64,000 nt of DNA from the NCBI RefSeq assembly GCF_029625215.1, contig NZ_CP121197.1, positions 3,720,001 through 3,784,000 on the forward strand, in the 5' to 3' direction. The stretch is from Aurantibacillus circumpalustris (GTDB lineage Bacteria; Bacteroidota; Bacteroidia; B-17B0; Aurantibacillaceae). Under the pieces are notes generated by a model. That model was given only the letters and a program-made list of their open reading frames with translations, ran no database searches and had not been told where the DNA came from. The translations under genes were made by a program, and so were the position numbers. Position 1 is the first letter of the stretch. Each line of letters begins with the position of its first letter. This document shows, in pieces, positions 24,583 to 61,830 of this stretch.

Positions 24583-24652
24583 GAATACATAATTACATCA
24601 TTTAACTCTCAACCAAAATGATAAATACCCGATCGAATTATGAGTTTTGTCA
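24583..24652 (-). promoter_or_regulatory. Regulon promoter of ppsA
   Basis: Minus strand: distal box TGACAAAACTCA (24652-24641), degenerate proximal box GGGTATTTATCA (24630-24619), 23 nt, then -7 element TAATTATG (24595-24588, one mismatch). The inferred start at about 24583 gives a 13-nt leader. Confidence 0.7.
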
Positions 24653-24701
24653 TTAAGTCTGCTCTTAACACTGAAAGACAGCTGCCTGCATTTGTGCTTA
24701 G

Positions 24702-24771
24702 TGATTTAAATCATTTAGTAAAGTGAGAATGCTCATTCTACTATTTCAGGATTAAGAACAAATTTGATCTT
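24702..24771 (+). promoter_or_regulatory. Regulon promoter of the BON gene at 24782
   Basis: Distal box TGATTTAAATCA (24702-24713, perfect palindrome), proximal box TGAGAATGCTCA (24724-24735), 23 nt, -7 element CAAATTTG (24759-24766). Inferred start 24771. It is back to back with the ppsA promoter. Confidence 0.82.
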
Positions 24772-24781
24772 AAAAAATAGT

Positions 24782-25468
24782 ATGAAAACAGATAGAGAAA
24801 TACAAGCAGACGTAATGTCTGAAATCCAGTGGGAACCAGCCTTGCTTGGGAACGAGATCGGAGTTTCTGTAAATGAAGGTGTGGTGATGCTTTCAGGTAT
24901 AGTTGATACCTACTACAAAAAAAGACTTGCCGAAAAGGTAAGTAAAAAAGTTAATGGCGTTAAGGCCGTTGCTGAAGAGATTCTGGTTAAGGTTCCTGGA
25001 AGCAATATTTACACAGATGTAGATATCGCAAAAGCTGCTCTCAGCGCTCTCAAATGGAATAGCGCAGTTAATGAAAATACAATTACCGTTCAGGTAGAAA
25101 ATGCGCAAGTAACACTCGAAGGAGATGCAGAATGGGCCTTCCAAAAACTTTCCGCACAAAAGGCAATCGAAAATTTGAACGGCGTTTGTTGTATTATTAA
25201 TAACATACATGTTAAAAATAAAATTGCGGCAGAGGGTGTATTAGATAACATTATGCGTGCCTTTGAACGTAATGCAATCATAGACTCAGCTGGCATTACA
25301 GTAAACGTGATCGGTGATAAGCTTATTTTAACTGGTACAGTACGATCTTATGCGGAAAAAAAAGATGCTGAAAATGTTGCATGGTCTTCCCCTGGGGTAA
25401 TGCATGTTGATAACCAACTGATGATCGATTCCAGTGTTAACATATCCTCAACATTTATTGAATCTTGA
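24782..25468 (+). CDS. Triple BON-domain protein
   Basis: The 228-residue protein has three BON domains in a row (about residues 1-70, 78-145, 155-225), each with the V..G.V.L.G.V pattern (GVVMLSGIVD, AQVTLEGDAEW, DKLILTGTVRSY). BON domains bind membranes or act in osmotic and envelope stress (OsmY-like). There is no signal peptide, so it is likely cytoplasmic. The ATG at 24782 is chosen because it aligns with the MKTD..IQ start of three paralogs in the window, and because an upstream TTG at 24764 lies inside the -7 element. Confidence 0.92.
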   Translation: MKTDREIQADVMSEIQWEPALLGNEIGVSVNEGVVMLSGIVDTYYKKRLAEKVSKKVNGVKAVAEEILVKVPGSNIYTDVDIAKAALSALKWNSAVNENTITVQVENAQVTLEGDAEWAFQKLSAQKAIENLNGVCCIINNIHVKNKIAAEGVLDNIMRAFERNAIIDSAGITVNVIGDKLILTGTVRSYAEKKDAENVAWSSPGVMHVDNQLMIDSSVNISSTFIES

Positions 25469-25703
25469 AAATAAAAAAGGATTGGTATCAAAAATTACTG
25501 AAAGTTCATACTTATCAAGTGGTACCAAAGCAATTGAAGATATTTTACATTCTTTCTATGTAATTATTACTTTACAGGGACAGATTCTGCTCTTATCTGC
25601 TGATACAGAAGATGAGGGGCAAATGCTTTGATGAGCGATTATATAAGAGTTCAGGAAAAACTTGCGTGAATGTACTCTGCTTTTTTAAAAAAGTAACGGT
25701 TTA

Positions 25704-26435
25704 TTAAAGAAAAAGCTTTTTAAATTGTTTTTTTTCCTTTTCTTTTAAGTCCGAAAGTATGTTCTTTATTTGCTTTGAGAAACTCTGTTTCGAGAGAAAA
25801 ATAAATGCTGTCCACGTATCGTGCCAGAGCCCTATCTTTTCTTGCAACCTATCGGTTTTTGTTTTATTCAAACCAATCTCTTTTTTTAGTTTTTTCGGCA
25901 ACATTTCATAAACATACATCATCTTTTTTATATCTCTTCTATAGTAATGCAAGGTTGTCCTGTTTCGATTATGTAGTTTTTTGTCAGCCCTCTTTTCGCG
26001 CTTTTTAAAATAGCTGAGTATTACTTTTTTACTCGGCAGTTTTTCTGGCAAACTTAATTCTTTGCGAAACAACCGCACCTCTTTTATGTAGCGAGGAATT
26101 TTTTCCAGAAATTGTTGTTCTAAAAGAGTTCTTTTCTTCATAAGGGGAAGAGTTAACTTTTCGGATACAGGAAGGCTTTTTTGCATGAGAAGAATAATAA
26201 TATAAAGCTCACGTAGCGTTCCTGCTTTATGAAACAAATTATCTAGTTTTTTTTTGCCAAAAGGTTTCTTAAACAGAGTTTCCGAAAAATAAAGTATGGC
26301 TTTTGTTTTTTTAATACACACTCTTAATGCGTGAAGACTTTCAGGTTTCCTGTTCTGACTGAATGTGTTTAGCCAAGTCTCAATCAATCCTAGCTGTTCA
26401 TCAAGGTAATTATTTACTACATTTTTTTTACCCAT
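25704..26435 (-). CDS. CHAD-domain protein
   Basis: The 243-residue lysine-rich protein is an all-helical CHAD domain, with the conserved basic signatures LHALRVCIKKTKA near 34 and LHYYRRDIKKMMY near 160 and the closing KIGLWHDTW near 205. CHAD domains bind inorganic polyphosphate through their basic face and localise to polyphosphate granules. This fits the energy-stress theme of the region. It has its own regulon promoter 13 nt before the ATG and stands divergently to the secreted protein at 26752. Confidence 0.87.
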   Translation of the reverse strand: MGKKNVVNNYLDEQLGLIETWLNTFSQNRKPESLHALRVCIKKTKAILYFSETLFKKPFGKKKLDNLFHKAGTLRELYIIILLMQKSLPVSEKLTLPLMKKRTLLEQQFLEKIPRYIKEVRLFRKELSLPEKLPSKKVILSYFKKREKRADKKLHNRNRTTLHYYRRDIKKMMYVYEMLPKKLKKEIGLNKTKTDRLQEKIGLWHDTWTAFIFLSKQSFSKQIKNILSDLKEKEKKQFKKLFL

Positions 26436-26447: not shown

Positions 26448-26495
26448 TTTAGCAAATATGCGAAAATGCCAGAACAGGAACCATGATCCTTATCA
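26448..26495 (-). promoter_or_regulatory. Regulon promoter of the CHAD gene
   Basis: Minus strand: proximal box TGATAAGGATCA (26495-26484), 23 nt, -7 element CATATTTG (26460-26453). Only a half-site (TCA) marks the distal position. Inferred start 26448. Confidence 0.78.
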
Positions 26496-26664
26496 CATAA
26501 CTTATTGATGAATTTTGTGAAAATGAATGGAACCAGAAGTTTTTTTTGCAAAAAAAAAATCTGGAACAATTTAGTTTTTTGATGGGCGGTGTGTGAAAAT
26601 ATGAATACCGGCACTTGATTACAAGTCTGGTCTATTTAGTGCTATATGCTACTACGCTTACAAA

Positions 26665-26734
26665 TGATAAGGATCATATTTTTGAATGATCGAGGTTAAC
26701 GCTTTGTTATTTTTTCGTTCTGAACTTTGCGGGT
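26665..26734 (+). promoter_or_regulatory. Regulon promoter of the secreted protein at 26752
   Basis: Distal box TGATAAGGATCA (26665-26676), proximal box TGATCGAGGTTA (26687-26698), 23 nt, -7 element GAACTTTG (26722-26729). Inferred start 26734, leader 18 nt. The distal box equals the CHAD box in sequence. Confidence 0.8.
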
Positions 26735-26751: not shown

Positions 26752-27156
26752 ATGAAGAAAATAATTTTGGCATTTTGTCTTTTTGCGTTTACACTTTTAC
26801 ACGCGCAGCAAATTACTTGTGATACTAACTCATGCACCAAACAAAAAACAGCTAGATATGAGATAGAACTCGTAAAGAAATGTAGTAATCGCCTGAATGT
26901 ATATGTAAACGATCGAATGGGGAAACCATTGATACATACGGATGTTATCGGGTATATTGCCTTCTTTTACAAAGGAGGTGATATGGTGACTGAAGAATTA
27001 TTTCAGTATCCACAAAGCAACTACCTGGAAGCAGAAATCCCACGCACTGGTTTTTATAAATTTAAAGTGTCGCTGGTTATTAACGGAGAAACTATATCTA
27101 CTTTTTTTGACAATGAGTGTACACTAAGAACACTGATGGATACAAGAAACTGGTAA
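26752..27156 (+). CDS. Small secreted beta-rich protein, family copy 1 of 3
   Basis: The 134-residue protein has a signal peptide (MKKIILAFCLFAFTLLHAQ). The mature part is predicted beta-rich and ends with a shared block: EIPRTGFYKFKVSLVINGET, then an ISTFFDNEC segment. Two paralogs in the window (34588 and 46678) share the plan. Three or more Cys residues suggest disulfides. Unlike the other two, this copy is not followed by a thioredoxin gene. The family is not recognised; an envelope role is likely. It has its own regulon promoter. Confidence 0.8.
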   Translation: MKKIILAFCLFAFTLLHAQQITCDTNSCTKQKTARYEIELVKKCSNRLNVYVNDRMGKPLIHTDVIGYIAFFYKGGDMVTEELFQYPQSNYLEAEIPRTGFYKFKVSLVINGETISTFFDNECTLRTLMDTRNW

Positions 27157-27204: not shown

Positions 27205-27274
27205 TGATAAATATCATCACGGCTACTGACCAACTTCATAACAACTTTTTGATAAACAAAGTACTTTTGACACA
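27205..27274 (+). promoter_or_regulatory. Regulon promoter of the exporter operon
   Basis: Distal box TGATAAATATCA (27205-27216), proximal box TGACCAACTTCA (27227-27238), 23 nt, -7 element TACTTTTG (27262-27269, perfect). Inferred start 27274, leader 34 nt. A 10-bp inverted repeat (27174-27183 with 27213-27222) overlaps the distal box and may end the upstream transcript. Confidence 0.85.
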
Positions 27275-27307: not shown

Positions 27308-27619
27308 ATGAAATCAACACTCAGTACCTATTCTCTTTATGACCTCTCTAACCCACATTTCAGTCGAGTAACGCTGTTCACCTCAGACAATAAGAAGCTC
27401 AGAGGGCAATTTGTACAATTCAAAGTAGTTAAAGATTCCAACTTTGAATACTTGTACCCAGCCGAAAAATATTGCTTTTTGCTGGAAGAGAATCGGGAAG
27501 CATTTTGGTCAGTGCACAATAGCAGCAACGGCGAATTTAACGACTTCCCGAAGTATGTGCTGCAGCTGGGTTTAGATGATATAAAACAAATTCTTATTGA
27601 GCCTTTACTTGTTGCATAA
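27308..27619 (+). CDS. Small hypothetical protein heading the exporter operon
   Basis: This 103-residue soluble protein has no recognisable family, no signal peptide and no membrane segment. It has alternating strands (RVTLFTSDNKKLRGQFVQFK, later KYCFLLEENREAFW) and ends in ILIEPLLVA. The first gene after a strong regulon promoter, it lies 5 bp before the HlyD-type gene, so it is cotranscribed with the exporter and may adjust it or provide a separate stress function. Confidence 0.65.
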   Translation: MKSTLSTYSLYDLSNPHFSRVTLFTSDNKKLRGQFVQFKVVKDSNFEYLYPAEKYCFLLEENREAFWSVHNSSNGEFNDFPKYVLQLGLDDIKQILIEPLLVA

Positions 27620-27624: not shown

Positions 27625-28722
27625 ATGAGAGATAAACGTGTATTGGCTTTTTGTCTGTTAGTTGCATTTAATCTGCTGTATTTCACCGCCTGCAAGGATA
27701 GCAAGGAAAAACTCAGGCCGGTGTACGGTACCGTCACAGAATCCATCTATGCATCAGGCACCATAAAAAGCAAAGACCAATATCAGGTATTTGCGCAAGC
27801 CAATGGTATAATTGAGCAGGTTTTTGTGAAAGAAGGGGATACTGTACAAAAAGGACAGCCACTTTTATTCATTTCAAACAATATACAACGTCTTACTAAA
27901 GAAAATGCGGAGCTGGCTGCAAAGTTCTCAGATCTTGATGCTAATAAAAGCAAATTGATGGACGCCCGGGCATTTTCAGACCTCGCCAAAGAAAAAATGC
28001 AAAACGATTCTTTGTTGCATGCACGGCAACAAGCACTTTGGCAACAAAATATTGGTACGCGGGTGGAGCTGGAACAACGCGAACTTGCATTTAAAAATTC
28101 AAGAAACTCATACTATTCATCGCTGCTGAAACTCGAGGATCTTAAACGGCAACTGGAATTTACATCTTCGCAGGCAAAAAAAAATCTTTTGATTTCCGGA
28201 ACCTCAGAAGATGATTATACTGTGCGAAGTGAATTAAACGGAAGAGTTTACAGCCTAAGTAAAGTAAAGGGAGAAATGGTGAGTATGCAAACCCCTTTAG
28301 CAGTGGTAGGTGATGCAAGGATCTTTATTCTTGAAATGCAGGTAGACGAATACGATATCATAAAAATAAAAAATGATCAACTTGTTCTTATTACTCTTGA
28401 TAGCTATCGCGGACAGGTATTTGAAGGAAAGGTGACACGCATTTTTCCGCTTATGAATGAGCGAAGCAAAACCTTTCTTGTTGAAGCCGAATTCACAAAA
28501 GCCCCGCCAATAGTTTATCCTAACACCAGCTTTGAGGCTAATATTGTGATCAACAGAAAAGAAAACACCTTGCTCATTCCTCGAAACTATCTGCTAAATG
28601 ACAGTACGGTTATTAAAAGTAATGGTGAAAAAACACAAGTGAAAACAGGATTAAAGGATTACCAGATGATCGAAATTCTAGATGGTATTTCTAAAAATGA
28701 AGAACTTACTAAACCCGACTGA
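27625..28722 (+). CDS. HlyD/MacA-type periplasmic adaptor lipoprotein
   Basis: The 365-residue membrane-fusion protein has a lipobox (LLYFTAC, Cys about 23), a biotinyl-lipoyl-like half (GTIKSKDQYQVFAQANGIIE), a long coiled-coil hairpin (about 90-185), a second lipoyl half (YTVRSELNGRVYSLSKVKGE) and a beta-barrel domain. It links an inner-membrane ABC exporter to an outer-membrane channel. Its stop codon overlaps the start of the permease gene, so the two are translationally coupled. No TolC homolog is next to it. Confidence 0.9.
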   Translation: MRDKRVLAFCLLVAFNLLYFTACKDSKEKLRPVYGTVTESIYASGTIKSKDQYQVFAQANGIIEQVFVKEGDTVQKGQPLLFISNNIQRLTKENAELAAKFSDLDANKSKLMDARAFSDLAKEKMQNDSLLHARQQALWQQNIGTRVELEQRELAFKNSRNSYYSSLLKLEDLKRQLEFTSSQAKKNLLISGTSEDDYTVRSELNGRVYSLSKVKGEMVSMQTPLAVVGDARIFILEMQVDEYDIIKIKNDQLVLITLDSYRGQVFEGKVTRIFPLMNERSKTFLVEAEFTKAPPIVYPNTSFEANIVINRKENTLLIPRNYLLNDSTVIKSNGEKTQVKTGLKDYQMIEILDGISKNEELTKPD

Positions 28723-29981
28723 TGAACCTAAAACTAAGCTTCGATATTTCCCGTTCATTGTTATTAGCCCGGTGGCGTCAAACTTTGGTGGCCGCTATTG
28801 GCGTAACATTCAGCATCGCAATGTTTATTACACTTCTGAGTTTTATGACTGGATTAAATCAGTTACTGGATGGACTTATACTGAACCGGACACCACACAT
28901 CCGACTATACAAGGAAGTAAAGCCGTCAGCAAAGCAACCGGTTGAATTATCCGAGTCCTTTTCAGGTACTCATAATTTTATCCGTTCTGTAAAACCTAAA
29001 GACGAACAACTTCAGATAAGGAATAGCGCTATCATTCTGAAAACACTGCGCGAAGATAAACGTGTGTTGGGAATTGCCCCAAAAATTAGCTGTCAACTAT
29101 TCTACAACCTTGGCGCTGTTGACTTACCAGGCACTGTAAGCGGTATTGACCCAGAGGCCGAGAACCGACTTTTTAAATTCAGTGAGTACGTTACCGAAGG
29201 CAGGTACATTGATTTGAAAAACATCCCCAACAGTATTATTCTTGGGAAAGCTGCCGCCGAAAAAATGCTCGCGCAGATGGGAGATATCGTTCAGGTGACG
29301 ACTTCACGCGGTGAACGTTTTCAATTAAAAGTGGTTGGCTATTTTCAATCGGGACTACAAGAGCTAGATAAAATACAGAGTTATGTATCTGTTACCACTG
29401 CACAAAAACTATTAGGCGAACCAAACAGTTATATCACCGACATACAGGTGAAGCTGAAGGATATTTTAAACGCGCGGGCAATGGCTCTAGAATACAGTCA
29501 GCTGTTTGATGTGGAAGCGCTTGATATTAATACGGCGAACTCACAATTTGAAACTGGCACATTTATCCGCACATTGATTTCTTATGTGGTAGGCATTACC
29601 TTACTGGTTGTCGCTGGCTTTGGCATTTATAATATTCTTAATATGATGATCTATGAAAAGATGGATACTATTGCTATTTTAAAAGCAACTGGTTTCTCTG
29701 GTAAAAACGTAAAAGCAATTTTTATTAGCATTGCTTTGACTATTGGTATTTTTGGTGGTGTGCTGGGATTGTTGCTGGGACTTGGTGCGTCGGCATTAAT
29801 TGATCTTGTGCCATTTAATACAGAAGCACTTCCTACAATAAAAACATATCCTGTTAATTATAATCCTGCGTTTTATATTATTGGTGGAATTTTTTCAGTG
29901 GTCACAACTTATTTCGCGGGTTACTTTCCATCGCGCAAGGCAAGTAAGGTAGATCCCGTTGTTATTATCAGAGGAAAATAA
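28722..29981 (+). CDS. ABC transporter permease, FtsX/MacB type
   Basis: The 419-residue protein has an N-terminal transmembrane helix (about 18-40), a large extracytoplasmic domain (about 45-280) and three C-terminal helices (about 285-400), the FtsX domain layout. It starts at the ATG overlapping the adaptor stop. Together with the adaptor and the ATPase it forms a MacAB- or DevBCA-like exporter of an unknown substrate, possibly a lipid, siderophore or signal. Confidence 0.9.
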   Translation: MNLKLSFDISRSLLLARWRQTLVAAIGVTFSIAMFITLLSFMTGLNQLLDGLILNRTPHIRLYKEVKPSAKQPVELSESFSGTHNFIRSVKPKDEQLQIRNSAIILKTLREDKRVLGIAPKISCQLFYNLGAVDLPGTVSGIDPEAENRLFKFSEYVTEGRYIDLKNIPNSIILGKAAAEKMLAQMGDIVQVTTSRGERFQLKVVGYFQSGLQELDKIQSYVSVTTAQKLLGEPNSYITDIQVKLKDILNARAMALEYSQLFDVEALDINTANSQFETGTFIRTLISYVVGITLLVVAGFGIYNILNMMIYEKMDTIAILKATGFSGKNVKAIFISIALTIGIFGGVLGLLLGLGASALIDLVPFNTEALPTIKTYPVNYNPAFYIIGGIFSVVTTYFAGYFPSRKASKVDPVVIIRGK

Positions 29982-29982
29982 G

Positions 29983-30663
29983 ATGGACAACAGAGTACTT
30001 GAGGCAGTTAATATCAGTAAGGAGTTTCACGACCCGGTAACCGTGTCAGTTTTAAAGGATATTAATTTTTCAATTGATAAAGGTGAATTTGCATCTGTGA
30101 TTGGAAAATCCGGATGTGGAAAATCGACCTTGCTTTATATTCTTTCAACAATGGATACAGATTTTAAAGGCGACTTGAAAATAGACGGCGTGAGTATGGT
30201 GAATAAAAAAGAAGAAGAGCTGGCAAGAGTGCGGAATGAAAAAATTGGTTTTGTTTTTCAATTCCATTATTTACTGAACGAATTCAGTGTTCTTAAGAAT
30301 GTAATGTTGCCGGGTTTAAAACTTGCTATTTACTCAGAAAAAGAAATAGAACACAGGGCTTACGAAAAGTTAAAAGTACTTGGCATTGAAAGCGAAGCGT
30401 TGAAATTCCCGAACCAACTTTCGGGTGGACAAAAACAGCGGGTTGCCATTGCCAGAGCCCTCATTAACAACCCACTTATTATTATGGGTGATGAGCCAAC
30501 TGGTAACCTCGACAAAAAGAACAGTGAAATTGTGTTTCACATTTTTGAAGAACTGACTGTCGAATACAAACAATCGCTTTTAATTGTAACGCATGACACC
30601 GATTTTGCAAACCGCACTAAGCGCATCATTGAAATGGAGGACGGAAAAATTATAAAACAATAA
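29983..30663 (+). CDS. ABC transporter ATPase, LolD/MacB type
   Basis: The 226-residue ATPase has Walker [10 protein letters not shown] near 42, signature [15 protein letters not shown] near 140 and Walker [11 protein letters not shown] near 160. It powers the permease encoded upstream. The ATG at 29983, one base after the permease stop, is chosen over an upstream in-frame TTG because homologs begin close to the [15 protein letters not shown] segment. It is the last gene of the operon. Confidence 0.93.
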
Positions 30664-30695: not shown

Positions 30696-31157
30696 CTAAC
30701 TTTCGGCAGGCCAGTTACTATTAAGTATTTGGTTGGCCATGTACCAGAACAGTTTTGCAGTTTCTGTTGGTTTATTAGCTAAATCGGAAAACACCATCAT
30801 GTTTTCAATAAATAGAGTTTTGACGATGGGAGAATATTCCGCAGAAGTTAAATCATAAAAGGCCATGTTCCAGTTTTCAAAAGCGCGCCCCACAACATGT
30901 TCTTCGTTTACTAACCGAACATGTGTATGGCGTTTATCCCTACGAATATTTGAAAACAAATCCTGTACACTATTTTTTTCGCCTTCCAGTAATTGAATAA
31001 ACTCACCTTCGTGATAAAGGAGGCACCCCGTAATGTTATTGTTTTTGTTAAAGGATCGGGAAGTATTGAGAATAGAAGAAATGTCTTCCATCGTTATTTC
31101 TGGTTTTGCAACAGAACAATATATTAATTCAAACATGTTTATTTTGTTAAAGTGCAT
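30696..31157 (-). CDS. BLUF-domain blue-light sensor
   Basis: The 153-residue protein is a BLUF domain (residues about 8-100) with the flavin-contact Tyr in ELIYCS, the Asn in NNITGCLLY and the Gln in FIQLLEGE. These bind FAD and sense blue light. No output domain follows, so it should act by protein contact. ATG at 31157 or at 31136 (MFELIYCS) are both possible starts. It sits beside a dual box (31207-31240), at a helical-phase position but without the strict -7 spacing on this strand. Confidence 0.92.
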   Translation of the reverse strand: MHFNKINMFELIYCSVAKPEITMEDISSILNTSRSFNKNNNITGCLLYHEGEFIQLLEGEKNSVQDLFSNIRRDKRHTHVRLVNEEHVVGRAFENWNMAFYDLTSAEYSPIVKTLFIENMMVFSDLANKPTETAKLFWYMANQILNSNWPAES

Positions 31158-31206: not shown

Positions 31207-31276
31207 TGATCTTTTTCACTAAAACTAATGATGCGTATCATATCCATAGCGCATGTGCAGGCCTACCTTAGATCAA
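31207..31276 (+). promoter_or_regulatory. Regulon promoter of the DUF6629 gene
   Basis: Distal box TGATCTTTTTCA (31207-31218), proximal box TGATGCGTATCA (31229-31240), 23 nt, -7 element TACCTTAG (31264-31271). Inferred start 31276, leader 73 nt. The same boxes might also serve the divergent BLUF gene. Confidence 0.7.
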
Positions 31277-31348: not shown

Positions 31349-32020
31349 ATGTGTTTTTCAGCAAGTGCAAGTTTTGGAGCAGGTATTGTTCTTGTGGCGA
31401 TTGGAGCTGCCTCCATTAAAAAAAAACAGAACTCTTCTCATGTAATGTTTGCGGCTATTCCTTTAATTTTTGGAATACAACAGATCTCTGAAGGATTCCT
31501 TTGGTTATCCTTAACTCATTCTGGCTGGAATTTTTTGCAAAGGCCAATGACCTATGTGTTTCTGTTTTTTGCTCAAATCGTTTGGCCTTTTTGGGTGCCT
31601 TACTCAATACTGAAATTAGAAAAGGATAAGAAAAGAAAGAAAATAGAAAGGGTACTTACCATTCTTGGCGCCACAATCTCTGTATATCTGGCGTACTGCC
31701 TGATCTCTTATCACGTGGAAGCTAAAATTCTCGGGCTTCACATTACTTACCTTCAGAACTATCCCACAAGCCTGAGTCTCTTCGGAGGTGCACTCTACAT
31801 GATTGTAACTATTATTCCTCCTTTTTTTTCGGGTATTAAGCATATGTGGAGTCTGGGAACTGCGATTCTTATTTCGTATGTGATGACCGCGATTTTTTAT
31901 GAAGGTTATATTGTTTCCGTTTGGTGCTTTTTTGCATCCGTTATCAGTATTGCCGTAGTGGTAATTATGCACGAAATAAAAAAATCATACGTTCGTTCTT
32001 TGTCGTTTCAATCACTTTAA
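31349..32020 (+). CDS. DUF6629-type membrane protein
   Basis: This 223-residue integral membrane protein has seven probable transmembrane helices. It begins with MCFSASASFGAG, the typical N-terminus of the DUF6629 family, and includes QQISEGFLWL and PFWVPYSI segments. The family function is unknown; fixed Trp, Glu and His residues within helices suggest a cofactor or ion site. It is monocistronic and under a regulon promoter. Confidence 0.85.
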   Translation: MCFSASASFGAGIVLVAIGAASIKKKQNSSHVMFAAIPLIFGIQQISEGFLWLSLTHSGWNFLQRPMTYVFLFFAQIVWPFWVPYSILKLEKDKKRKKIERVLTILGATISVYLAYCLISYHVEAKILGLHITYLQNYPTSLSLFGGALYMIVTIIPPFFSGIKHMWSLGTAILISYVMTAIFYEGYIVSVWCFFASVISIAVVVIMHEIKKSYVRSLSFQSL

Positions 32021-32043: not shown

Positions 32044-32113
32044 TGATTATGATCATTTCTGAGTTTGATTCCAATCATACCAGACCCCCGTATTATTGGT
32101 TAGTATTGTTAAC
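32044..32113 (+). promoter_or_regulatory. Regulon promoter of the phosphorylase-PRPP synthetase operon
   Basis: Distal box TGATTATGATCA (32044-32055), proximal box TGATTCCAATCA (32066-32077), 23 nt, -7 element TAGTATTG (32101-32108). Inferred start 32113, only 7 nt before the ATG. Confidence 0.8.
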
Positions 32114-32119
32114 TCAGGT

Positions 32120-33622
32120 ATGAAACAAAATTCCAATTCTTTAAAACTAAAACGTCTGCATATTGATGCGCAAATAGAGCATATTGTGTTTATGCCGAAA
32201 GATTGCGCTATTCATAAATCGGAAGGATTTTCGTCACTTAACCGTGTACAAGTGCAGGTTAATAAAAAAACGCTGATTGCTTCATTGAACATTATAGATG
32301 ATGGCATTTTAAAACAGGATGAAGCAGGTTTGTCGGAAAGCGCCTGGAAAGCGTTGAATGCAAAAGAGGGCAACCTGATCAGGTTTTCGCACTGCGCTCC
32401 TGTAGATTCTATGAAATATGTGCGCGGAAAAATGTATGGTAAACGGCTTTCTGAAAATAACTTCAGAGAAATACTGGATGATGTAGTAGCAGGCCGTTAT
32501 TCAAATGTAGAACTTTCCGCATTTATTACAGCCTGCGCTGGTGATAACCTTAGTCTGAAAGAAATTACCTTTTTAACAAGAGCGATGGTGAGTTCAGGGC
32601 GTCGCTTGCGCTGGAACAGTAAAATTGTAGCTGACAAACACTGTGTTGGTGGATTGCCGGGTAACCGTACCAGTCCTATTGTTGTTGCGATTGTGGCTGC
32701 TGTCGGAATTAAAATCCCGAAAACATCTTCCCGTGCAATCACCTCGCCGGCGGGAACCGCAGACACTATGGAAACACTTACTGAGGTTGAACTGGATACT
32801 AGCAAAATCAGAAAAGTAATCGCAATGGAAAATGGTTGCCTGAGTTGGGGAGGCTCTGTGAAACTAAGCCCTGCCGATGAAGTCCTCATCCGGATAGAAC
32901 GCGCTTTGGACATTGACAGTTACGGACAGATGATTGCTTCTGTACTATCAAAAAAAAGTGCAGCGGGATCTACCCATGTAGTAATAGATATTCCAGTTGG
33001 TAAATCAGCAAAAGTGCGAACAAAAGAAGATGCCGAAAAATTAGAATATTATTTTAAAGTAGTAGCCGCTTCATTAAATTTAAAAATAAAAATACTGATT
33101 ACCGATGGTTCTCAACCTGTTGGCAGGGGCATAGGACCCGTTCTTGAAGCCCTTGACGTACTGAGTGTATTAAAAAATGAAGCTACCGCGCCTCAGGATC
33201 TTAAACAAAGATCATTAATGCTTGCAGGAGAGATTTTGGAACTTGTTGGCAAAGTTAAAGAAGGTAAAGGCTTTGAGGCTGCTCGATTGATTCTGGAAAA
33301 TGGATTTGCTTATAAAAAGTTTAAGGCTATTTGTATCGCACAGGGTGGAATGAAGAAACCAAGACCGGCCCGTTACAAAAAAGCAGTTAGGGCTGAAAGA
33401 AAAGGTGTGGTAAAGGAAATAGATAACAGATTACTTGCAAAAGTTGCTAAACTTGCGGGAGCCCCTAGAGAGCCAGGAGCAGGGGTTTTACTGCTTAGTC
33501 CTTTAGGTACTCATGTTAAAAAAGGAGATATATTGTTTTATGTTTATGCGCATGCTTCAGGGGAATTGCGCTATACTCTGGATTATTTGAAACAACAACC
33601 TGATATTATTTATATCCGTTAA
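32120..33622 (+). CDS. AMP/thymidine phosphorylase family enzyme
   Basis: The 500-residue protein has the N-terminal extra domain (about 1-85) of archaeal AMP phosphorylases, then the thymidine phosphorylase fold: MVSSGRRL near 165, DKHCVGGLPGNRTSP near 182, TSSRAITSPAGTADTMETLT near 215. The C-terminal domain ends near GAGVLLLSPLGTHVKKGD. It likely cleaves a nucleoside monophosphate or nucleoside with phosphate. The product ribose phosphate fits the adjacent PRPP synthetase-like gene. ATG 32120 is used; an upstream TTG at 32096 lies before the inferred transcription start. Confidence 0.88.
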   Translation: MKQNSNSLKLKRLHIDAQIEHIVFMPKDCAIHKSEGFSSLNRVQVQVNKKTLIASLNIIDDGILKQDEAGLSESAWKALNAKEGNLIRFSHCAPVDSMKYVRGKMYGKRLSENNFREILDDVVAGRYSNVELSAFITACAGDNLSLKEITFLTRAMVSSGRRLRWNSKIVADKHCVGGLPGNRTSPIVVAIVAAVGIKIPKTSSRAITSPAGTADTMETLTEVELDTSKIRKVIAMENGCLSWGGSVKLSPADEVLIRIERALDIDSYGQMIASVLSKKSAAGSTHVVIDIPVGKSAKVRTKEDAEKLEYYFKVVAASLNLKIKILITDGSQPVGRGIGPVLEALDVLSVLKNEATAPQDLKQRSLMLAGEILELVGKVKEGKGFEAARLILENGFAYKKFKAICIAQGGMKKPRPARYKKAVRAERKGVVKEIDNRLLAKVAKLAGAPREPGAGVLLLSPLGTHVKKGDILFYVYAHASGELRYTLDYLKQQPDIIYIR

Positions 33623-33623
33623 T

Positions 33624-34499: not shown

Positions 34500-34569
34500 T
34501 GACAAGGATCATGTCTTTGTATGAGCTAGATTATTCACATACGGTAAAACAAGCTCTACTTTTGATTCT
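34500..34569 (+). promoter_or_regulatory. Regulon promoter of secreted protein 2
   Basis: Distal box TGACAAGGATCA (34500-34511), proximal box TGAGCTAGATTA (34522-34533), 23 nt, -7 element TACTTTTG (34557-34564, perfect). Inferred start 34569, leader 19 nt. Confidence 0.85.
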
Positions 34570-36242: not shown

Positions 36243-36312
36243 TGCTGAACATCATGGCTGTTAATGATCAGCGTCATTCTTTTGACTTAGCATTTCCGGT
36301 AATTTTGTATGC
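36243..36312 (+). promoter_or_regulatory. Regulon promoter of hsp20
   Basis: Degenerate distal box TGCTGAACATCA (36243-36254), proximal box TGATCAGCGTCA (36265-36276), 23 nt, -7 element TAATTTTG (36300-36307, perfect). Inferred start 36312, leader 37 nt. Confidence 0.85.
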
Positions 36313-40494: not shown

Positions 40495-40522
40495 CTGAAC
40501 TGTTTATCCGATATGCCAATTT

Positions 40523-53023: not shown

Positions 53024-53093
53024 TTTGACAAAGTTATGGTAATAGATACGAGGTAACTATGAAATGTATCATATCTCAGCGTGACTCATATCA
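53024..53093 (-). promoter_or_regulatory. Regulon promoter of the lipoprotein gene
   Basis: Minus strand: distal box TGATATGAGTCA (53093-53082), proximal box TGATACATTTCA (53071-53060), 23 nt, -7 element TAACTTTG (53036-53029, perfect). Inferred start 53024. The same two boxes serve the opposite strand in swapped roles. Confidence 0.85.
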
Positions 53094-53129
53094 TAACTCC
53101 AGCAGGGTATAAACTTTACCTTTGGGGGA
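53060..53129 (+). promoter_or_regulatory. Regulon promoter of the receiver gene, leaderless
   Basis: Distal box TGAAATGTATCA (53060-53071), proximal box TGACTCATATCA (53082-53093), 23 nt, -7 element TACCTTTG (53117-53124, perfect). The inferred start 53129 is the A of the ATG, so the mRNA should be leaderless. Confidence 0.87.
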
Positions 53130-53491
53130 TGCAGACTATTTTAGTTGTAGAAGATAATAAAGAGTTACGTGAAAACACAGCAGAGCTGCTTCAATTGGCC
53201 GGATTCAACGTAATAACCAGTACCAATGGCGAAGAAGGTTTGCAACTAACCATCGAACAACATCCAGATCTAATACTTTGCGATCTGATTATGCCCAAAG
53301 CAGGAGGAATGGAGTTGCTTCAGAACAAAAAGAATAATAATACAATCAGTGATATCCCCCTTGTGTTTCTTTCTGCCGGCTCAGCATCCTTTCACCACCA
53401 CAATGGGTTTAGAGCTGACGGATACCTGAGCAAACCTTTTACTTACGAGCAATTACTTAAAACCATTAAACAAATTCTTAAAAAGAATTGA
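53129..53491 (+). CDS. Single-domain response regulator
   Basis: The 120-residue receiver domain has VVEDNKELRENTAELLQLAG at the start, phospho-Asp in LILCDLIMPK near 53, Ser in FLSAGSA and Lys in YLSKPFTYE. Similarity to the receiver of the CRP fusion at 58270 (both RENT.ELL.LAG, GLQ, PDLILCD) suggests both take phosphate from the same kinases. ATG 53129 is chosen over an upstream frame start because the latter lies inside the promoter. Probably translated from a leaderless mRNA. Confidence 0.92.
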   Translation: MQTILVVEDNKELRENTAELLQLAGFNVITSTNGEEGLQLTIEQHPDLILCDLIMPKAGGMELLQNKKNNNTISDIPLVFLSAGSASFHHHNGFRADGYLSKPFTYEQLLKTIKQILKKN

Positions 53492-53723: not shown

Positions 53724-53793
53724 TTAACTAGATCACCTGTAAGTGTGACAAGGATCATTTAATTAAATAGGTATGCCGTTTAATTTTGTTGAA
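53724..53793 (+). promoter_or_regulatory. Regulon promoter of the BON genes at 53818 and 54544
   Basis: Degenerate distal box TTAACTAGATCA (53724-53735), proximal box TGACAAGGATCA (53746-53757), 23 nt, -7 element TAATTTTG (53781-53788, perfect). Inferred start 53793, leader 25 nt. Confidence 0.84.
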
Positions 53794-53817: not shown

Positions 53818-54486
53818 ATGAAAACAGATGCAGAAATTCAAAAAGACGTGATGGAAGAACTCCGCTGGGAGCCATTGTTGAACGCAGCGGAAATAGGGGT
53901 TTCCGTAAAAAATGGTGTAACTACTTTATCCGGTATTGTAAACAGCTACTATAAAAAAACAACTGCAGAAAAGGCGGCGCGCCGTGTAAACGGAGTTAAA
54001 GCTGTAGCGGAAGACATTGAGGTGAAGTTTACTGAAAGTCTGATTAAGAACGACACGGAGATTGCTGAGATCATCCTTCATAACCTGAAATGGAACAGCG
54101 CGATTAAAGAGGAAAAAGTTAAGGTGAAAGTAGATAACGGTGTAGTAACCCTTGATGGTGAAGTGGGTTGGAAATACGAAAGGGATTTAATTGAATCGGA
54201 ATTGGAAGGTTTGAATGGTGTTAAATTTGTGGTAAATAACATCAACATCAAGCCAGGGATCCTGCCAAAAGATATTAACCAGAAGATCAAGTCGGCTTTT
54301 CAGCGTAACGCTTGCTGCGATGCAGATAAGATCAAGGTGTCGGTTTCCGGTCACACGGTTACGCTTAGTGGCAAGGTGCGTTCCTGGGCTGAAAAAAACG
54401 ATGCGGAAAATGTGGCATGGGCTGCCAACGGCGTTACAAAGGTAGAGAATTTGTTAGAGGTGGATAGTCCCGTGCTGGCACTTTAA
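53818..54486 (+). CDS. Triple BON-domain protein
   Basis: The 222-residue protein has three BON domains (GVTTLSGIVNSY, GVVTLDGEVGW, HTVTLSGKVRSW). Start ATG at 53818 gives MKTDAEIQKDVMEELRWEPL as in the paralogs; an earlier in-frame ATG at 53773 lies upstream of the inferred transcription start and is rejected. The next BON gene follows 57 bp later and has no box of its own. Confidence 0.93.
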   Translation: MKTDAEIQKDVMEELRWEPLLNAAEIGVSVKNGVTTLSGIVNSYYKKTTAEKAARRVNGVKAVAEDIEVKFTESLIKNDTEIAEIILHNLKWNSAIKEEKVKVKVDNGVVTLDGEVGWKYERDLIESELEGLNGVKFVVNNINIKPGILPKDINQKIKSAFQRNACCDADKIKVSVSGHTVTLSGKVRSWAEKNDAENVAWAANGVTKVENLLEVDSPVLAL

Positions 54487-54543: not shown

Positions 54544-55209
54544 ATGAAAACAGATTCAGAAATTCAAAAAGACGTGATTGAAGAGATTAGTTGGGAACCG
54601 TTTCTCAAAAAAAGTGAAATCGGTGTTTCGGTAAAAGGCGGCATCGTCACGCTATCTGGAACAGTAGACGCTTACTCGAAAAAAGTAGCGGCAGAAAAAG
54701 CAGCGAAACGCGTGGCTGGTGTTAAGGCAGTTGCCGAAGACATTGAGATAGAATATACGATAGAAGGCAAACGTACGGACTCCGCAATTGCAGCAGCCGT
54801 AGTAAATGCCCTCAAATGGCACAGCGCCATGCAGGAAAATAAAATCAAGGTGAAAGTAGAGGATGGTTTTGTAACTCTTGAGGGCGATGTGGATTGGGAA
54901 TTCCAGAAAAACTCAGCACGCTACATGGTAGAAAATCTTCAGGGAGTAAATGGAATTATCAACCTGATCAAAATTAAACCAGGTGCAAGTCCTGTTGAGA
55001 TTTCTAAAAAAATTAACGCGGCATTTCACAGAAGCGCGACCATTGATTCAGGAAAAATACAAGTGAATGTAAGTGGTAGTAAAGTAATGCTAAGCGGGAA
55101 GGTACGCTCTTATTCAGAAAAAAAGGACGCTGAGAAAGCCGCTTGGCTGGCACCGGGTGTTACAGAGATTGAAAATAAAATAGAGATCGAAAGCCCAGTT
55201 TACAGTTAA
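54544..55209 (+). CDS. Triple BON-domain protein
   Basis: The 221-residue protein is the closest in layout to the gene before it: GIVTLSGTVDAY, GFVTLEGDVDWEF, SKVMLSGKVRSY. It starts MKTDSEIQKDVIEEISWEPF. The pair appears to be a tandem duplication with divergence. It is probably cotranscribed and ends at the terminator at 55245. Confidence 0.93.
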   Translation: MKTDSEIQKDVIEEISWEPFLKKSEIGVSVKGGIVTLSGTVDAYSKKVAAEKAAKRVAGVKAVAEDIEIEYTIEGKRTDSAIAAAVVNALKWHSAMQENKIKVKVEDGFVTLEGDVDWEFQKNSARYMVENLQGVNGIINLIKIKPGASPVEISKKINAAFHRSATIDSGKIQVNVSGSKVMLSGKVRSYSEKKDAEKAAWLAPGVTEIENKIEIESPVYS

Positions 55210-58269: not shown

Positions 58270-59328
58270 CTAGTTTTTTATTTTTTCAAGTTTCTTAATA
58301 TCACAAATTTTTATGGTTCCGCCATTGCTTTCCAGCAGTCCCTCGTCTTTAAAATCTGTAAGGTGTCTGCTCACCGATTCAGGTGAGATGCCAGCCAGGG
58401 AAGAAAGGTTTTCCCGGTTAAGTTCAAAGGTGATCTCATGTTTATCGTCGGTCATGAATTTTCCTGCAACAAAAAGCAAAGCCTCAGCAACACGTTTTCG
58501 CGCTGAGTTGTAAGCCAGTTTGATCAATTTATCTTCCGCAACAATTAAATTTTTTGACAGAAGTTTAATGAATTTTATAGATAAATTATTGTCACCATTC
58601 AGGTAATGCAGAAAATCTTGTTTAGGTACCATCACCACTTCCGAAGTTTCAATTGCCATCACCGATTCTTTGTGTACTGAATCTTCCAGCAATGCTGTAT
58701 AACCAAAAAAATCACCCTCCATTAAAAGATCTATAATATAATCTTTACCTGATTCATTCGATTTGTAAATTTTTAATTTTCCACATTTTAAAAAGTAAAG
58801 CGAGTTGGCTGAATCGCCTTCAGAATAAACAAATCCTTTTTTACGGATTTTTTTAATAGGTTTATTTTCAAGTAGAGTAAGATAATTATCTTGTTCGTTC
58901 GGTAAAACACTTGGTTCTTTAAATTCATGACTTTCCTCCATCGCCTTTTTGAGCAGAGTGCTTTTTTTAATGCGTGCCGATACAATTTTCAGCAAACTGT
59001 CACCGGTATAAGGTTTTGTTAGATAATCGTCTGCGCCAAGATCCATAGCTTTGCGCATGTCAGACATTTCGGCCTTGGAAGTTAGAAATATAAAAGGAAT
59101 AGTGGCCGCACCGGGAATGTTCTGAAGGGCCTGCAATACACCAAAGCCGTCCAGCACAGGCATACTGATGTCACAAAGTATCAGGTCAGGTTTATTTGTT
59201 CTCATCATTTGCAGTCCTTGTTTCCCATCACTACTGGTGATGGTTTCATATCCTGCCAGCTCTAAAAGCTCAGAGGTATTTTCACGAACTGCGACGTTAT
59301 CATCAATTATAAGAATTTTTTGCACCAT
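58270..59328 (-). CDS. Receiver-CNMP-HTH fusion regulator, likely master regulator
   Basis: The 352-residue protein joins a receiver domain (1-120: IIDDNVAVREN, phospho-Asp in LILCDISMPVLDG, Lys in YLTKPYTG), a cyclic-nucleotide-binding-like domain (about 150-265) and a CRP-type helix-turn-helix (about 280-340). The recognition helix reads SPESVSRHL; E317, S320 and R321 match the E..SR pattern of FNR, which reads TTGAT. No Fe-S cysteine cluster is present, so oxygen sensing would come from elsewhere. A strong Shine-Dalgarno (AAGGAGGG) precedes the ATG. Its promoter carries the same box, pointing to autoregulation. Confidence 0.93.
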   Translation of the reverse strand: MVQKILIIDDNVAVRENTSELLELAGYETITSSDGKQGLQMMRTNKPDLILCDISMPVLDGFGVLQALQNIPGAATIPFIFLTSKAEMSDMRKAMDLGADDYLTKPYTGDSLLKIVSARIKKSTLLKKAMEESHEFKEPSVLPNEQDNYLTLLENKPIKKIRKKGFVYSEGDSANSLYFLKCGKLKIYKSNESGKDYIIDLLMEGDFFGYTALLEDSVHKESVMAIETSEVVMVPKQDFLHYLNGDNNLSIKFIKLLSKNLIVAEDKLIKLAYNSARKRVAEALLFVAGKFMTDDKHEITFELNRENLSSLAGISPESVSRHLTDFKDEGLLESNGGTIKICDIKKLEKIKN

Positions 59329-59349: not shown

Positions 59350-59419
59350 TACTACAATAATAATCAACTCAACAATGAAAGTTGCTGATTTAGATCATAA
59401 GGATATATGATTGATGTTG
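59350..59419 (-). promoter_or_regulatory. Regulon promoter of the master regulator operon
   Basis: Minus strand: degenerate distal box CAACATCAATCA (59419-59408), proximal box TGATCTAAATCA (59397-59386), 23 nt, -7 element TATTATTG (59362-59355). Inferred start 59350, leader 22 nt. Confidence 0.78.
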
Positions 59420-59586: not shown

Positions 59587-59612
59587 AAGCACTGAGTTTT
59601 GCGATTTGCTTG

Positions 59613-61418
59613 TTATTTTTCGTGGAAAGTATAGTTTTCCTTTTTTACGGAAACACTAGCATTCTTCACATCTTTGTTTTTTTGTTTTTGTAGTTTAAAT
59701 GTTTCTATTTCGTCCCACGAAAGAGAATTTAGAATATTACCGGGTTTACACCAGGCACGTCTGGCAATAGAAACACCCAACTCCATAAAATTAAAATCCT
59801 GTAACGTATGGCTGTCTGTTCCGATAACCAGCATTACACCTTTTCTTCGGGCCTCCATGGCGAAGTCGTCTTTCAAATCCATTCGGGTAGGCTGCGCATT
59901 TATTTCCAGTGCAGTTCCGGTTCTTTTCGCAGCATTGATCAGCTCAGTGATGTCGAGCTTGTATGCGTCGCGGTGACCAATTAAACGGCCAGTAGGATGA
60001 CTAATACAACATACAAACGGATTTTCACAGGCACGGATGATCCGATCAGTATTATCTTTATCGAAATGGCTATGTACCGCAGCGTTTACCCAGTCGAGTT
60101 GAGATAAAATCTCGTTGCTGATATCAAGTTGTCCATCTTGCAGGATATCAACTTCGATCCCTGTTTTAATAAAATTGACACCCATTTTTTTGTTTAGTGC
60201 TTTTATAATTTTTACCTGTTGAAGGATTTGTTTTTCATCCATGCCCCTGGCAATGCGTGACGATTTGGAATGATCTGTAATCACAATGTAGTTGTAGTTG
60301 AAACGCCGTTGAAGATGCAGGAGTATTTCCTCCGGTGTGCACAAGCCGTCAGACCAATTACTATGAACATGCAGATCTCCTTTGATGTCAGTCAGATTTA
60401 TCAAAGAAGGAACAGTGTGATTTTGTGAGTGTAGGATCTCGCCTTTGTCCTCGCGCATTTCAGGTGGCATAATCTGGAATCCCAACGTTGTGTATAGATC
60501 CGCTTCGGTAGCACCACCAAGCCTTTTTCCATTAGAAAGACTGAATATACCGTACTCGGAAATTTTGAATCCTTTTGAGCGCGCAATTGTTCGCAGATGA
60601 ATGTTATGTTCGCGTGAACCTGTAAAATATTGCAACGCAGAGCCCCAATTATTCTCAGTAATAAGTCGCAGGTCAACTTGTTTTTTCGGATCACTCAGAA
60701 CTATGCTTGCCCTTTGATCGCCCTTTAAGATCACACGCCCAACAAAATCGCCGCTGGTAAAATATTTTATTATCTGCGCTCTGTGCTCTTCCTTGCAGGC
60801 AACAAGCATATCAATATCACCAATGGTTTCTTTTCTCCTCCTTAAACTTCCTGCTGCTTCTACTTTTATCACCCCCGGACAAGCCTTTAACCAGGCTTTT
60901 ACTTTTTCGCCAAGAGCAAGAGCATCCCAGAGTAACATACGATCTTCAACCTCCTTATATAATTTAAATCCACGCAACATGGCTTCTACTTTTCCGGCAC
61001 CAAAACCTGGTAGTTTATTTATCTTTCCACTTTGCAGCGCTTCAACAAATTCCTGCCTTGTTCTTACTTTTAAACTTGAAACAATTTTTTTAAGAGTTTC
61101 CGGTCCAAATCCTTTCACTTCCATAATTTCAAGAAGCTGGTAAGGTGTTTTTTTTCTGAGATGCTCGAAACGTTTGATTGTGCCCGACACAAGATACTCT
61201 TTAATAGTCCTGGTAATACTTTCGCCAATACCCGGCAGCGCTTTGATTTGTTCAGGTGAATAGTTACAGATGCTTTGCGGTAATGTTTTGATAACACGCG
61301 ATGCTTTTTGAAAAGCAAGAAACCTAAAACGCTCCTGAACGCCAATGTATTTGTACATTAAAGACATTTCTCGGAACAAGTCGGCCAGCTTGTTATTTTC
61401 GTCGAGCGATAAACTCAT
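59613..61418 (-). CDS. DNA polymerase/3'-5' exonuclease PolX
   Basis: The 601-residue repair polymerase has an N-terminal helix-hairpin-helix domain (LPGIGESITRTIKEYL, GFGPETLKKIV, LPGFGAGKVEAML), the nucleotidyltransferase core with SLRRRKETIGDIDMLVA near 200, and a C-terminal PHP domain (DLHVHSNWSDG near 340, VITDHSKSSRIARGM) acting as 3'-5' exonuclease. ATG 61418 is used: an upstream GTG at 61433 lies inside the -7 element. It serves base-excision-type repair and is under a two-box regulon promoter, which suggests repair of DNA in the stressed state. Confidence 0.93.
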   Translation of the reverse strand: MSLSLDENNKLADLFREMSLMYKYIGVQERFRFLAFQKASRVIKTLPQSICNYSPEQIKALPGIGESITRTIKEYLVSGTIKRFEHLRKKTPYQLLEIMEVKGFGPETLKKIVSSLKVRTRQEFVEALQSGKINKLPGFGAGKVEAMLRGFKLYKEVEDRMLLWDALALGEKVKAWLKACPGVIKVEAAGSLRRRKETIGDIDMLVACKEEHRAQIIKYFTSGDFVGRVILKGDQRASIVLSDPKKQVDLRLITENNWGSALQYFTGSREHNIHLRTIARSKGFKISEYGIFSLSNGKRLGGATEADLYTTLGFQIMPPEMREDKGEILHSQNHTVPSLINLTDIKGDLHVHSNWSDGLCTPEEILLHLQRRFNYNYIVITDHSKSSRIARGMDEKQILQQVKIIKALNKKMGVNFIKTGIEVDILQDGQLDISNEILSQLDWVNAAVHSHFDKDNTDRIIRACENPFVCCISHPTGRLIGHRDAYKLDITELINAAKRTGTALEINAQPTRMDLKDDFAMEARRKGVMLVIGTDSHTLQDFNFMELGVSIARRAWCKPGNILNSLSWDEIETFKLQKQKNKDVKNASVSVKKENYTFHEK

Positions 61419-61427
61419 AATTTTAGT

Positions 61428-61497
61428 TATCACAAAGCAACATTTAATCGGAATTAAACGCCGTGACCTTAATCATTATAATCTATGATTGGTGTCA
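61428..61497 (-). promoter_or_regulatory. Regulon promoter of PolX
   Basis: Minus strand: distal box TGACACCAATCA (61497-61486), proximal box TGATTAAGGTCA (61475-61464), 23 nt, -7 element TTGCTTTG (61440-61433). Inferred start 61428, leader 10 nt. Confidence 0.82.
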
Positions 61498-61760
61498 CAC
61501 TTGTGTCAATTAACTATAACAATGCCTACATAAATTAATGTGCAACTGAGAGGCAAAAGACGCTATGATTTAGGAATAACAGAACTTGTTACACAAGCAA
61601 AAAGAATAGGGTGAATTCCTTGAATAAAATAGTATCATCATCTGGTTGCAGGTATAATAATAACAGGCTGAGTTTTGCCTTTTTTCTAAGCGTTGTACTG
61701 GATAGAAAAAAGTTAAAAAATTATCCGTGAGCATTATTAAAACCCTTCATTTGCTCTGAA
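61498..61760. other. Intergenic spacer, no gene seen
   Basis: Between the PolX and Usp promoters. No coding frame of good composition, no terminator-like hairpin and no RNA gene is recognised. Confidence 0.45.
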
Positions 61761-61830
61761 TGAGCAGAATCATTTTTTTTTATGACCATGCTCACCCTGT
61801 TTTGTTAGAGACCTCAGTAGATTTGATTTC
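61761..61830 (+). promoter_or_regulatory. Regulon promoter of the Usp gene at 61846
   Basis: Distal box TGAGCAGAATCA (61761-61772), proximal box TGACCATGCTCA (61783-61794), 23 nt, -7 element TAGATTTG (61818-61825, perfect). Inferred start 61830, leader 16 nt. Confidence 0.87.

Follow-up and report, generated by a model that had tools for sequence, protein, structure and literature searches.

Which protein reads the promoters of a dense island of stress and maintenance genes in Aurantibacillus circumpalustris, and to what signal does it respond? The island lies in a 64,000-nucleotide stretch of the genome (contig NZ_CP121197.1, positions 3,720,001 to 3,784,000 of assembly GCF_029625215.1), here called the window, in which 23 promoters between 24588 and 61825, on both strands, consist of a box TGA-N6-TCA followed 23 nt downstream by the element TAnnTTTG. 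We propose that they probably belong to a low-oxygen and stress-survival regulon of Bacteroidota, in which a FixL-like histidine kinase would act on a receiver-CRP fusion protein (REC-CRP) that merges FixJ with FixK and activates class II promoters.

The sites were read in the register 12-N10-12-N23-8 (distal box, proximal box, element). A distal box is found 22 bp upstream of the proximal box at 22 of the 23 sites, with no more than two mismatches in either box; the initial annotation of this DNA had described such a second box as frequent. Rebuilding the site list gave numbers identical to those first reported: 23 promoters, ten with two exact boxes, ten with a perfect TAnnTTTG and thirteen with one mismatch in it. 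The site at 43422-43486 on the minus strand, where the distal box has four mismatches, is in effect a single-box site. Matches at 26484(+), 27227(+), 36212(-), 36265(+), 60361(+, inside polX) and 61708(-) were left out of the promoter count as register artefacts. The box pair is symmetric, so that one pair is able to drive two divergent promoters; at 53029-53124 a single pair does serve two, with the distal and proximal roles exchanged. The 31-bp offset of these two divergent promoters recurs elsewhere on the contig (3675772/3675803 and 3689135/3689166) and in the genomes G025, G064, G072, G099, and G146.

Single TGA-N6-TCA boxes are common, with 44 exact copies in the window, some of them off the promoter register, and their abundance would favor a chance or compositional origin of the spacing. 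Exact boxes paired with an element of at most one mismatch were counted 18 times at a gap of 23 and 20 times at a gap of 45 (the distal box), compared with a mean of 1.0 over gaps other than 23, gap 45 included. The tandem spacing (22,23) gave 23 matches in the window, a number that includes the overlapping opposite reading 26484(+), not counted as a promoter, and excludes the 43422 site; 1768 other spacing combinations averaged 0.14 with a maximum of 4, and 300 dinucleotide shuffles averaged 0.04 with a maximum of 1. Across the whole genome, box-gap-element matches with gaps of 8 to 38 number 76, of which 21 have gap 23 and the 30 other gaps share 55 (Poisson p ∼1e-15). The window's first 24 kb have no tandem site, and neither do eight 20-kb control stretches of the genome, one of which contains two single-box matches.

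The spacing recurs well beyond this genome. In the loci of the best 80 of at least 470 REC-CRP relatives from species genomes (1.47 Mb in total, all 80 from Bacteroidota), an exact box precedes an exact element 58 times at gap 23 and 44 times at gap 45, compared with a mean of 1.0 for other gaps, and the box-to-box step of 22 occurs 63 times, where the mean is 0.62. A smaller peak at gap 46 (13 matches) suggests a 23-bp box step in some loci. Five loci placed in Flavobacteriaceae (L081, L082, L092, L095, and L105) peak at gap 23 only, a single-box version of the architecture. Among 198 genomes of the phylum, the tandem promoter (at most one mismatch) was found in 31, and a reversed-pattern control gave one site in all of them together. 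The tandem promoter is present in 26 of the 49 genomes of the window's class, own genome included, and in 5 of the 149 outside it, with one site each. Spacing controls in the window, genome, REC-CRP loci and phylum, together with the shuffles, contradict a chance or compositional origin, to which we attach practically no weight, and the earlier claim that fixed spacing exceeds randomized gaps holds. The promoter code is close to certain to be real.

In this genome of 4.6 Mb, a single contig, the tandem sites fall into two clusters, at 3.675-3.698 Mb and 3.745-3.800 Mb, and the 46 kb that separate these contain no such site. Single or paired tandem sites are also found at about 1.87, 2.06-2.07, and 3.98 Mb.

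In a transcription start site map of Flavobacterium psychrophilum, the sigma-A element TAnnTTTG is at −12 to −5 (PMC9723704). With the element taken at that position, the proximal box is predicted to be centered at −41.5 and the distal box at −63.5, the geometry of a class II activator. Across 101 aligned promoters from the REC-CRP loci, all positions between box and element are at or below 0.25 bits, save a T directly after the box. Among 28 promoters of this genome, a few positions in that interval rise to 0.25-0.45 bits. A −33 element is thus not apparent, and the activator probably takes its place. Proteins of the CRP/FNR group are able to repress, and a dimer on these boxes might instead block RNA polymerase; a repressor would not require a constant distance to the −7 element. 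We consider repression very improbable, since the single fixed position at −41.5, the phased tandem box at −63.5 and the lack of a conserved −33 element are features of class II activation. These features support what had been put forward for the window, a regulon of the CRP/FNR type whose promoters, on either strand, have class II geometry.

The candidate activator, also singled out in the initial annotation, is encoded at 58270-59328. Its product matches Pfam PF00027 (cNMP_binding) and PF13545 (HTH_Crp_2) above the cut-off, which makes it CRP-like, and it also carries a fused receiver domain. The predicted structure (mean predicted local distance difference test score 87.9, predicted template-modeling score 0.55, residues 134-146 poor) matches CRP structures in Foldseek with an E-value of 2.5e-19. 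A box stands at the gene's own promoter, and REC-CRP is apparently autoregulated. A second REC-CRP copy is located at 3.677 Mb, directly behind a PAS kinase gene and inside the first cluster.

Residues were counted in 57 aligned REC-CRP proteins, the two of this genome and 55 of the 80 relatives. In the receiver, Asp10, Asp53, and Lys105 are present in all 57, position 9 is Glu or Asp in all 57, and position 83 is Thr in 55 and Ser in 2. The recognition helix retains the two residues by which CRP/FNR proteins read TGA, the equivalent of CRP Glu181 in 57 of 57 and that of Arg185 in 56. The cyclic AMP (cAMP) pocket of CRP is formed by Glu72 and Arg82. The Glu72 position (210) is Glu in none of the 57 proteins and the Arg82 position (219 by alignment with the Mycobacterium tuberculosis and Thermus thermophilus CRPs, 220 with that of Escherichia coli) is Arg in three, so that cAMP is an unlikely ligand and a cAMP-activated CRP was rejected. 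The iron-sulfur oxygen sensor FNR has four conserved cysteines for its cluster; the sole cysteine column kept in all REC-CRP proteins is C52 of the receiver, with the next best column at 11 of 57, and an iron-sulfur FNR was rejected for want of a cysteine set. FixJ is a receiver fused to a NarL/LuxR-type helix-turn-helix and DosR is a NarL-type regulator; both types were rejected because Pfam identifies HTH_Crp_2 here. Because the receiver residues are kept and neither the cAMP pocket residues nor a cysteine set is, phosphorylation is the likely input of REC-CRP.

REC-CRP is also the likely reader of the boxes. Full-length REC-CRP was found in 32 of the 198 genomes, all in the window's class; matches at E 1e-30 occur in 60, of which 28 have partial matches only. 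At most 10 candidates were scored per genome, so some REC-CRP proteins may have been missed. A tandem site and full-length REC-CRP occur together in 21 genomes (odds ratio 30, p 3e-13), and the association holds when the class alone is considered (odds ratio 4.6, p 0.02). In 20 of these 21 genomes, a tandem site is located within 10 kb of 13 of 21 REC-CRP genes, compared with 5 of 52 other HTH_Crp_2 genes (p 1e-5; 52 of the 53 such genes were entered, excluding a 53-aa fragment).

The outer edge of the box provides further evidence. An outer T (TTGA, the FNR/FixK form) is found in 5 of 104 half-sites of the two clusters, compared with 53 of 122 in background boxes; thus the boxes of this genome do not have the anaerobox form TTGA-N6-TCAA, from which they differ in the outermost base. 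In the 80 loci, REC-CRP proteins with Ile at residue 320 go with a C/G ratio of 73/34 at the outer base and those with Ser with a ratio of 12/31, a difference reached by 8 of 5000 label permutations. Within this genome the corresponding C/G counts are 12/4 in the first cluster, which has the Ile paralog, and 8/14 in the window, which has the Ser paralog (p 0.025). That the outer base tracks residue 320 points to REC-CRP as the direct reader.

Other observations weigh against this assignment. Avoidance of the outer T is weaker in the relatives (76 of 436 half-sites), and T versus non-T at the outer base fails to separate the Ile and Ser groups (p 0.19). The link between residue 320 and the outer base was noticed post hoc, from half-sites that are not independent of one another, and may be confounded by lineage. 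Eleven genomes have REC-CRP and no tandem site, single boxes not being counted there. Five genomes of the class have tandem sites and no full-length REC-CRP match, and their HTH_Crp_2 frames are of 255 aa or less; in these, another CRP can probably read the boxes, or the receiver has been lost. The boxes might therefore be read mainly by a plain CRP/FNR protein without a receiver, for example the 234-aa protein encoded at 3.812 Mb, with REC-CRP a passenger or secondary. Five more HTH_Crp_2 genes of this genome lack a receiver, and the 5 of 52 plain CRP genes near a tandem site also fit such a reader. We think it unlikely: proximity favors REC-CRP (13 of 21), no site of this architecture occurs in the 20-kb neighborhood of the 3.812 Mb gene (L006) and the outer box base tracks the recognition residue of REC-CRP. 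In addition, a plain CRP gene at 1.749 Mb and a divergent chloride-channel gene are found, by eye, behind single perfect TTGAT-N4-ATCAA boxes in the gap-23 register (1748679-1749122, L008), with an outer base unlike that of the island, where outer T is avoided. There seem to be two box dialects in this genome.

REC-CRP has a consistent kinase neighbor. A homolog of the histidine kinase encoded at 50658 in the window is present in 70 of the 80 REC-CRP loci; it directly precedes the REC-CRP gene in 52 and lies 60-300 bp ahead of it in another 8. Under a looser adjacency rule, the kinase adjoins REC-CRP in 62 of the 80. The heme ligand of FixL is named as His200 and an oxygen-contacting residue as Arg220 (PMC10765370). 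By alignment, the motif H..Y...IIG..R covers these two positions (BjFixL numbering). It is present in 34 of the 62 adjacent kinases, the form H...R.MG in 21 and neither in 7, Arg206 not being counted. The kinases next to REC-CRP at the five Flavobacteriaceae loci L081, L082, L092, L095, and L105 are large (722-1083 aa) and lack the FixL signature.

Two features of the window's own kinase fit less well. The PAS domain of the 50658 product matches FixL and keeps the heme-histidine position, but it has the H...R.MG form, with neither Arg206 nor Arg220, and its gene is 6 kb from REC-CRP. The kinase at 3.678 Mb is, by eye, also of the H...R.MG form. As both kinases keep the histidine only, we infer oxygen as the signal in this genome from the relatives and the targets.

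The promoters, the candidate regulator and the kinase genes of the window are as follows, with promoters found by register scan and genes assigned by Pfam where so marked.

24588-24652, minus: promoter of the phosphoenolpyruvate (PEP)-synthase-like gene 22198-24570 (Pfam PPDK_N/PEP-utilizers).
24702-24766, plus: promoter with two exact boxes, of the BON gene 24764-25468 (register scan, Pfam).
26453-26517, minus: promoter of the CHAD gene 25704-26435 (register scan, Pfam).
26665-26729, plus: promoter of the gene 26752-27156 for a small, probably secreted protein (no Pfam match; secretion judged from the N-terminus by eye).
27205-27269, plus: promoter with all elements exact, before 27308-27619 and the HlyD/FtsX/ABC exporter genes 27625-30663 (ABC gene by eye).
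31207-31271, plus: promoter with two exact boxes, of the DUF6629 gene 31349-32020 (register scan, Pfam).
32044-32108, plus: promoter with two exact boxes, of a thymidine-phosphorylase-like gene (start 32120) and a phosphoribosyl-pyrophosphate (PRPP)-synthetase-like gene 33624-34490.
34500-34564, plus: promoter of 34588-34980 (small, probably secreted, no Pfam match) and the thioredoxin-like gene 34977-35393 (by eye).
36243-36307, plus: promoter of the Hsp20 gene 36349-36813, followed by the BON-like gene 36878-37546 (similarity to other BON genes).
37597-37661, plus: promoter of the L,D-transpeptidase gene 37690-39387 (register scan, Pfam).
40229-40293, plus: promoter with all elements exact; no open reading frame (ORF) of at least 60 aa starts within 300 bp, and a hairpin array is downstream.
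41715-41779, minus: promoter of the universal stress protein (Usp) gene 40825-41703 (register scan, Pfam).
43422-43486, minus: single-box promoter of the PAS histidine kinase gene 41801-43375; distal box not recognizable.
44334-44398, minus: promoter of the Usp gene 43487-44299 (register scan, Pfam).
44446-44510, plus: promoter of the gene 44536-45672 (no Pfam match).
45957-46021, plus: promoter of 46039-46653 (no Pfam match), followed by small secreted, thioredoxin-like and Usp-like genes (by eye).
48313-48377, plus: promoter with two exact boxes, of the 69-aa ORF 48386-48595 (YtxH-like by eye) and 48612-48968.
53029-53093, minus: promoter with all elements exact, of the gene 52182-53018; both boxes common to the divergent promoter.
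53060-53124, plus: promoter with all elements exact, of the single-domain receiver gene 53129-53491; box roles swapped relative to the minus-strand promoter.
53724-53788, plus: promoter of the BON genes 53818-54486 and 54544-55209 (the latter by similarity to BON genes).
59355-59419, minus: promoter of the REC-CRP gene; two mismatches in the distal box, one in the element.
61433-61497, minus: promoter with two exact boxes, of the PolX-type polymerase gene 59613-61433 (register scan, Pfam).
61761-61825, plus: promoter with all elements exact, of the Usp gene 61846-62706 (register scan, Pfam).
58270-59328, minus: REC-CRP gene (receiver, cNMP-binding fold and Crp-type helix-turn-helix), the candidate activator (Pfam, model, residues).
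50658-51833, plus: PAS histidine kinase of the type beside REC-CRP genes; none of the 23 promoters is directly ahead of it.
51826-52185, plus: single-domain receiver after the 50658 kinase (by eye).
41801-43375, minus: second PAS histidine kinase, with two PAS regions, itself behind a regulon box.

Pfam matches bear out the Usp, BON, Hsp20, PEP synthase, PolX, CHAD, and transpeptidase genes previously named as served by these promoters. A BLUF blue-light sensor gene is also found inside the stress-gene cluster (window 30696-31157, minus strand). The thymidine-phosphorylase-like and PRPP-synthetase-like pair (window 32096-34490) has one tandem promoter, and a role in nucleotide salvage during dormancy is a guess.

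Outside the window, targets in this genome include FixS (cbb3 oxidase assembly), thioredoxin, HMA-domain, pyridoxamine-phosphate-oxidase-like and DoxX genes, a PAS kinase, three Usp genes, NadA and a cytochrome c. An ORF in the first cluster resembles, by eye, an oxygen-independent coproporphyrinogen oxidase. In the relatives, 142 of 168 downstream genes were scanned, the 26 left out being near-duplicate loci and some kinase or REC-CRP genes, and family counts were taken from 25 of 74 families. The most frequent were COX1 (11), FixO (11), CBS (10), histidine kinase (10), Usp (9), and P-type ATPase (8), with Hsp20 (7), 2-hydroxyacid dehydrogenase (7), BON (4), and REC-CRP (4) also represented. 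These targets include the cbb3 oxidase CcoNO and a CcoI-like metal ATPase, and the target set of the relatives is that of a low-oxygen regulon. When oxygen is limiting, F. psychrophilum increases its cbb3 oxidase (PMC9723704); the words Crp and FNR do not appear in the main text of that paper.

A different redox cue, nitric oxide, starvation or stationary phase could be the signal instead, in a general dormancy regulon like that of DosR. This is a lesser but real possibility: the genes of the window are mostly of the stress and maintenance kind (Usp, BON, Hsp20, PEP synthase, CHAD, and PolX), and the window kinase lacks the two FixL arginines. On the other hand, the CcoNO oxidase families are the commonest targets in the relatives, the FixL signature is found in 34 of 62 adjacent kinases and FixS is among the targets in this genome itself.

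Several parts of the low-oxygen circuit that we favor are shown here: the promoter code and its conservation next to REC-CRP genes, the linkage of a kinase gene to these, a FixL signature in many of the kinases and the classes of target genes. The histidine kinase, which in many relatives has a FixL-like PAS domain, would phosphorylate REC-CRP and thereby enable its dimers to occupy one TGA-N6-TCA box or two. At −41.5, the proximal dimer would substitute for the missing −33 element and contact sigma-A RNA polymerase; a second contact would come from the distal dimer at −63.5, on the same face and two helical turns farther upstream. Direct binding by REC-CRP, control by phosphorylation and activation rather than repression are what we infer from these sequences. 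A broader formulation, for and against which we see the balance as even, is that many Bacteroidota run their low-oxygen and dormancy physiology through one undescribed two-component circuit, with FixJ and FixK combined in a single phosphorylation-gated CRP. This CRP would act as a pair of neighboring dimers on a tandem module that is symmetric and bidirectional and replaces the −33 element. In this genome, two REC-CRP paralogs would have diverged in recognition helix and box edge, splitting a respiration arm from a survival arm.

The system works like FixL-FixJ-FixK but is wired differently, and by the tests above REC-CRP is no member of FixJ, FNR, CRP, or DosR. It shares with the FixL-FixJ-FixK/FnrN systems of alphaproteobacteria a PAS kinase that is FixL-like in many relatives, a TGA-N6-TCA-type box and targets in cbb3 oxidase and its maturation. 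It differs in that the receiver is fused to a CRP-type activator, making FixJ and FixK one protein, in the avoidance of the outer T of the FixK/FnrN box TTGA-N6-TCAA and in the tandem 22-bp class II promoters built on the Bacteroidota element TAnnTTTG. A known parallel for the joint control of Hsp20 and cbb3 genes is their regulation by FnrN in rhizobia, where a Rhizobium Hsp20 gene under an FnrN anaerobox is reported to be induced ∼50-fold under microaerobic conditions (PMC11784457).

The likeness to DosR- or Anr-type dormancy regulons noted in the initial annotation stands as an analogy in gene content and fails as an assignment of type, as the candidate regulator is REC-CRP and the targets in relatives point to a FixL/FixK-type regulon. 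DosR/DevR of mycobacteria, known with a heme kinase, likewise controls a dense regulon with Usp and Hsp20 targets, but is NarL-type with another box, whereas the output here is CRP-type. FNR and Anr have in common with the present system the CRP fold, the class II position, the TGA-N6-TCA core and targets in Usp and low-oxygen respiration; REC-CRP lacks their iron-sulfur cysteine set, has an extra receiver domain and is associated with another outer box base. With CRP it shares the fold and the Glu181/Arg185 equivalents, but not the Glu72 and Arg82 residues. A search of open-licence PubMed Central (PMC) literature, subscription papers lying outside its scope, found no receiver-CRP regulator, FixL-type system or such promoter code in Bacteroidota, in agreement with the earlier statement that no description was known, and gave no lead on tandem DosR boxes.

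Oxygen control in Bacteroidota is little described in the open-licence literature. If the proposal is correct, it would provide a promoter code readable from sequence alone, name its regulator and kinase and predict targets in many genomes. It would also be a shortened counterpart of the FixL-FixJ-FixK cascade, and a natural example of phosphorylation, rather than a small ligand, gating a protein of the CRP fold. As an inducible promoter part, the rigid tandem module could be of use in Bacteroidota.

One promoter of the window, with all elements exact, precedes a putative non-coding RNA.

40300-40565, plus: putative non-coding RNA with five GACC-CNGTAA-GGTC hairpins (40350, 40381, 40414, 40446, and 40479), followed by a terminator-like hairpin with a T run.

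This region is presumably transcribed from that promoter. It has no Rfam match, and the Rfam scan of the window and a tRNA scan gave no lead; a free-energy test was weak (z −1.75). The exact double hairpin was found in 1 of 198 class genomes. A genome of the same genus (G373, L112:1462-1691) has eight hairpins with covarying stems and nearly the same loop as the CNGUAA of the window array, and no tandem box in the DNA around the array. Twelve of the 13 hairpins could be aligned; eight are distinct, and compensatory changes occur in five of six pairs. The RNA may be a sponge for a protein. A different array, of ∼9 hairpins (CGAGYGT-AAGACCWTA-ACRCTCG, by eye), is found at L029:5587-5850, immediately ahead of a regulon promoter and a kinase gene.

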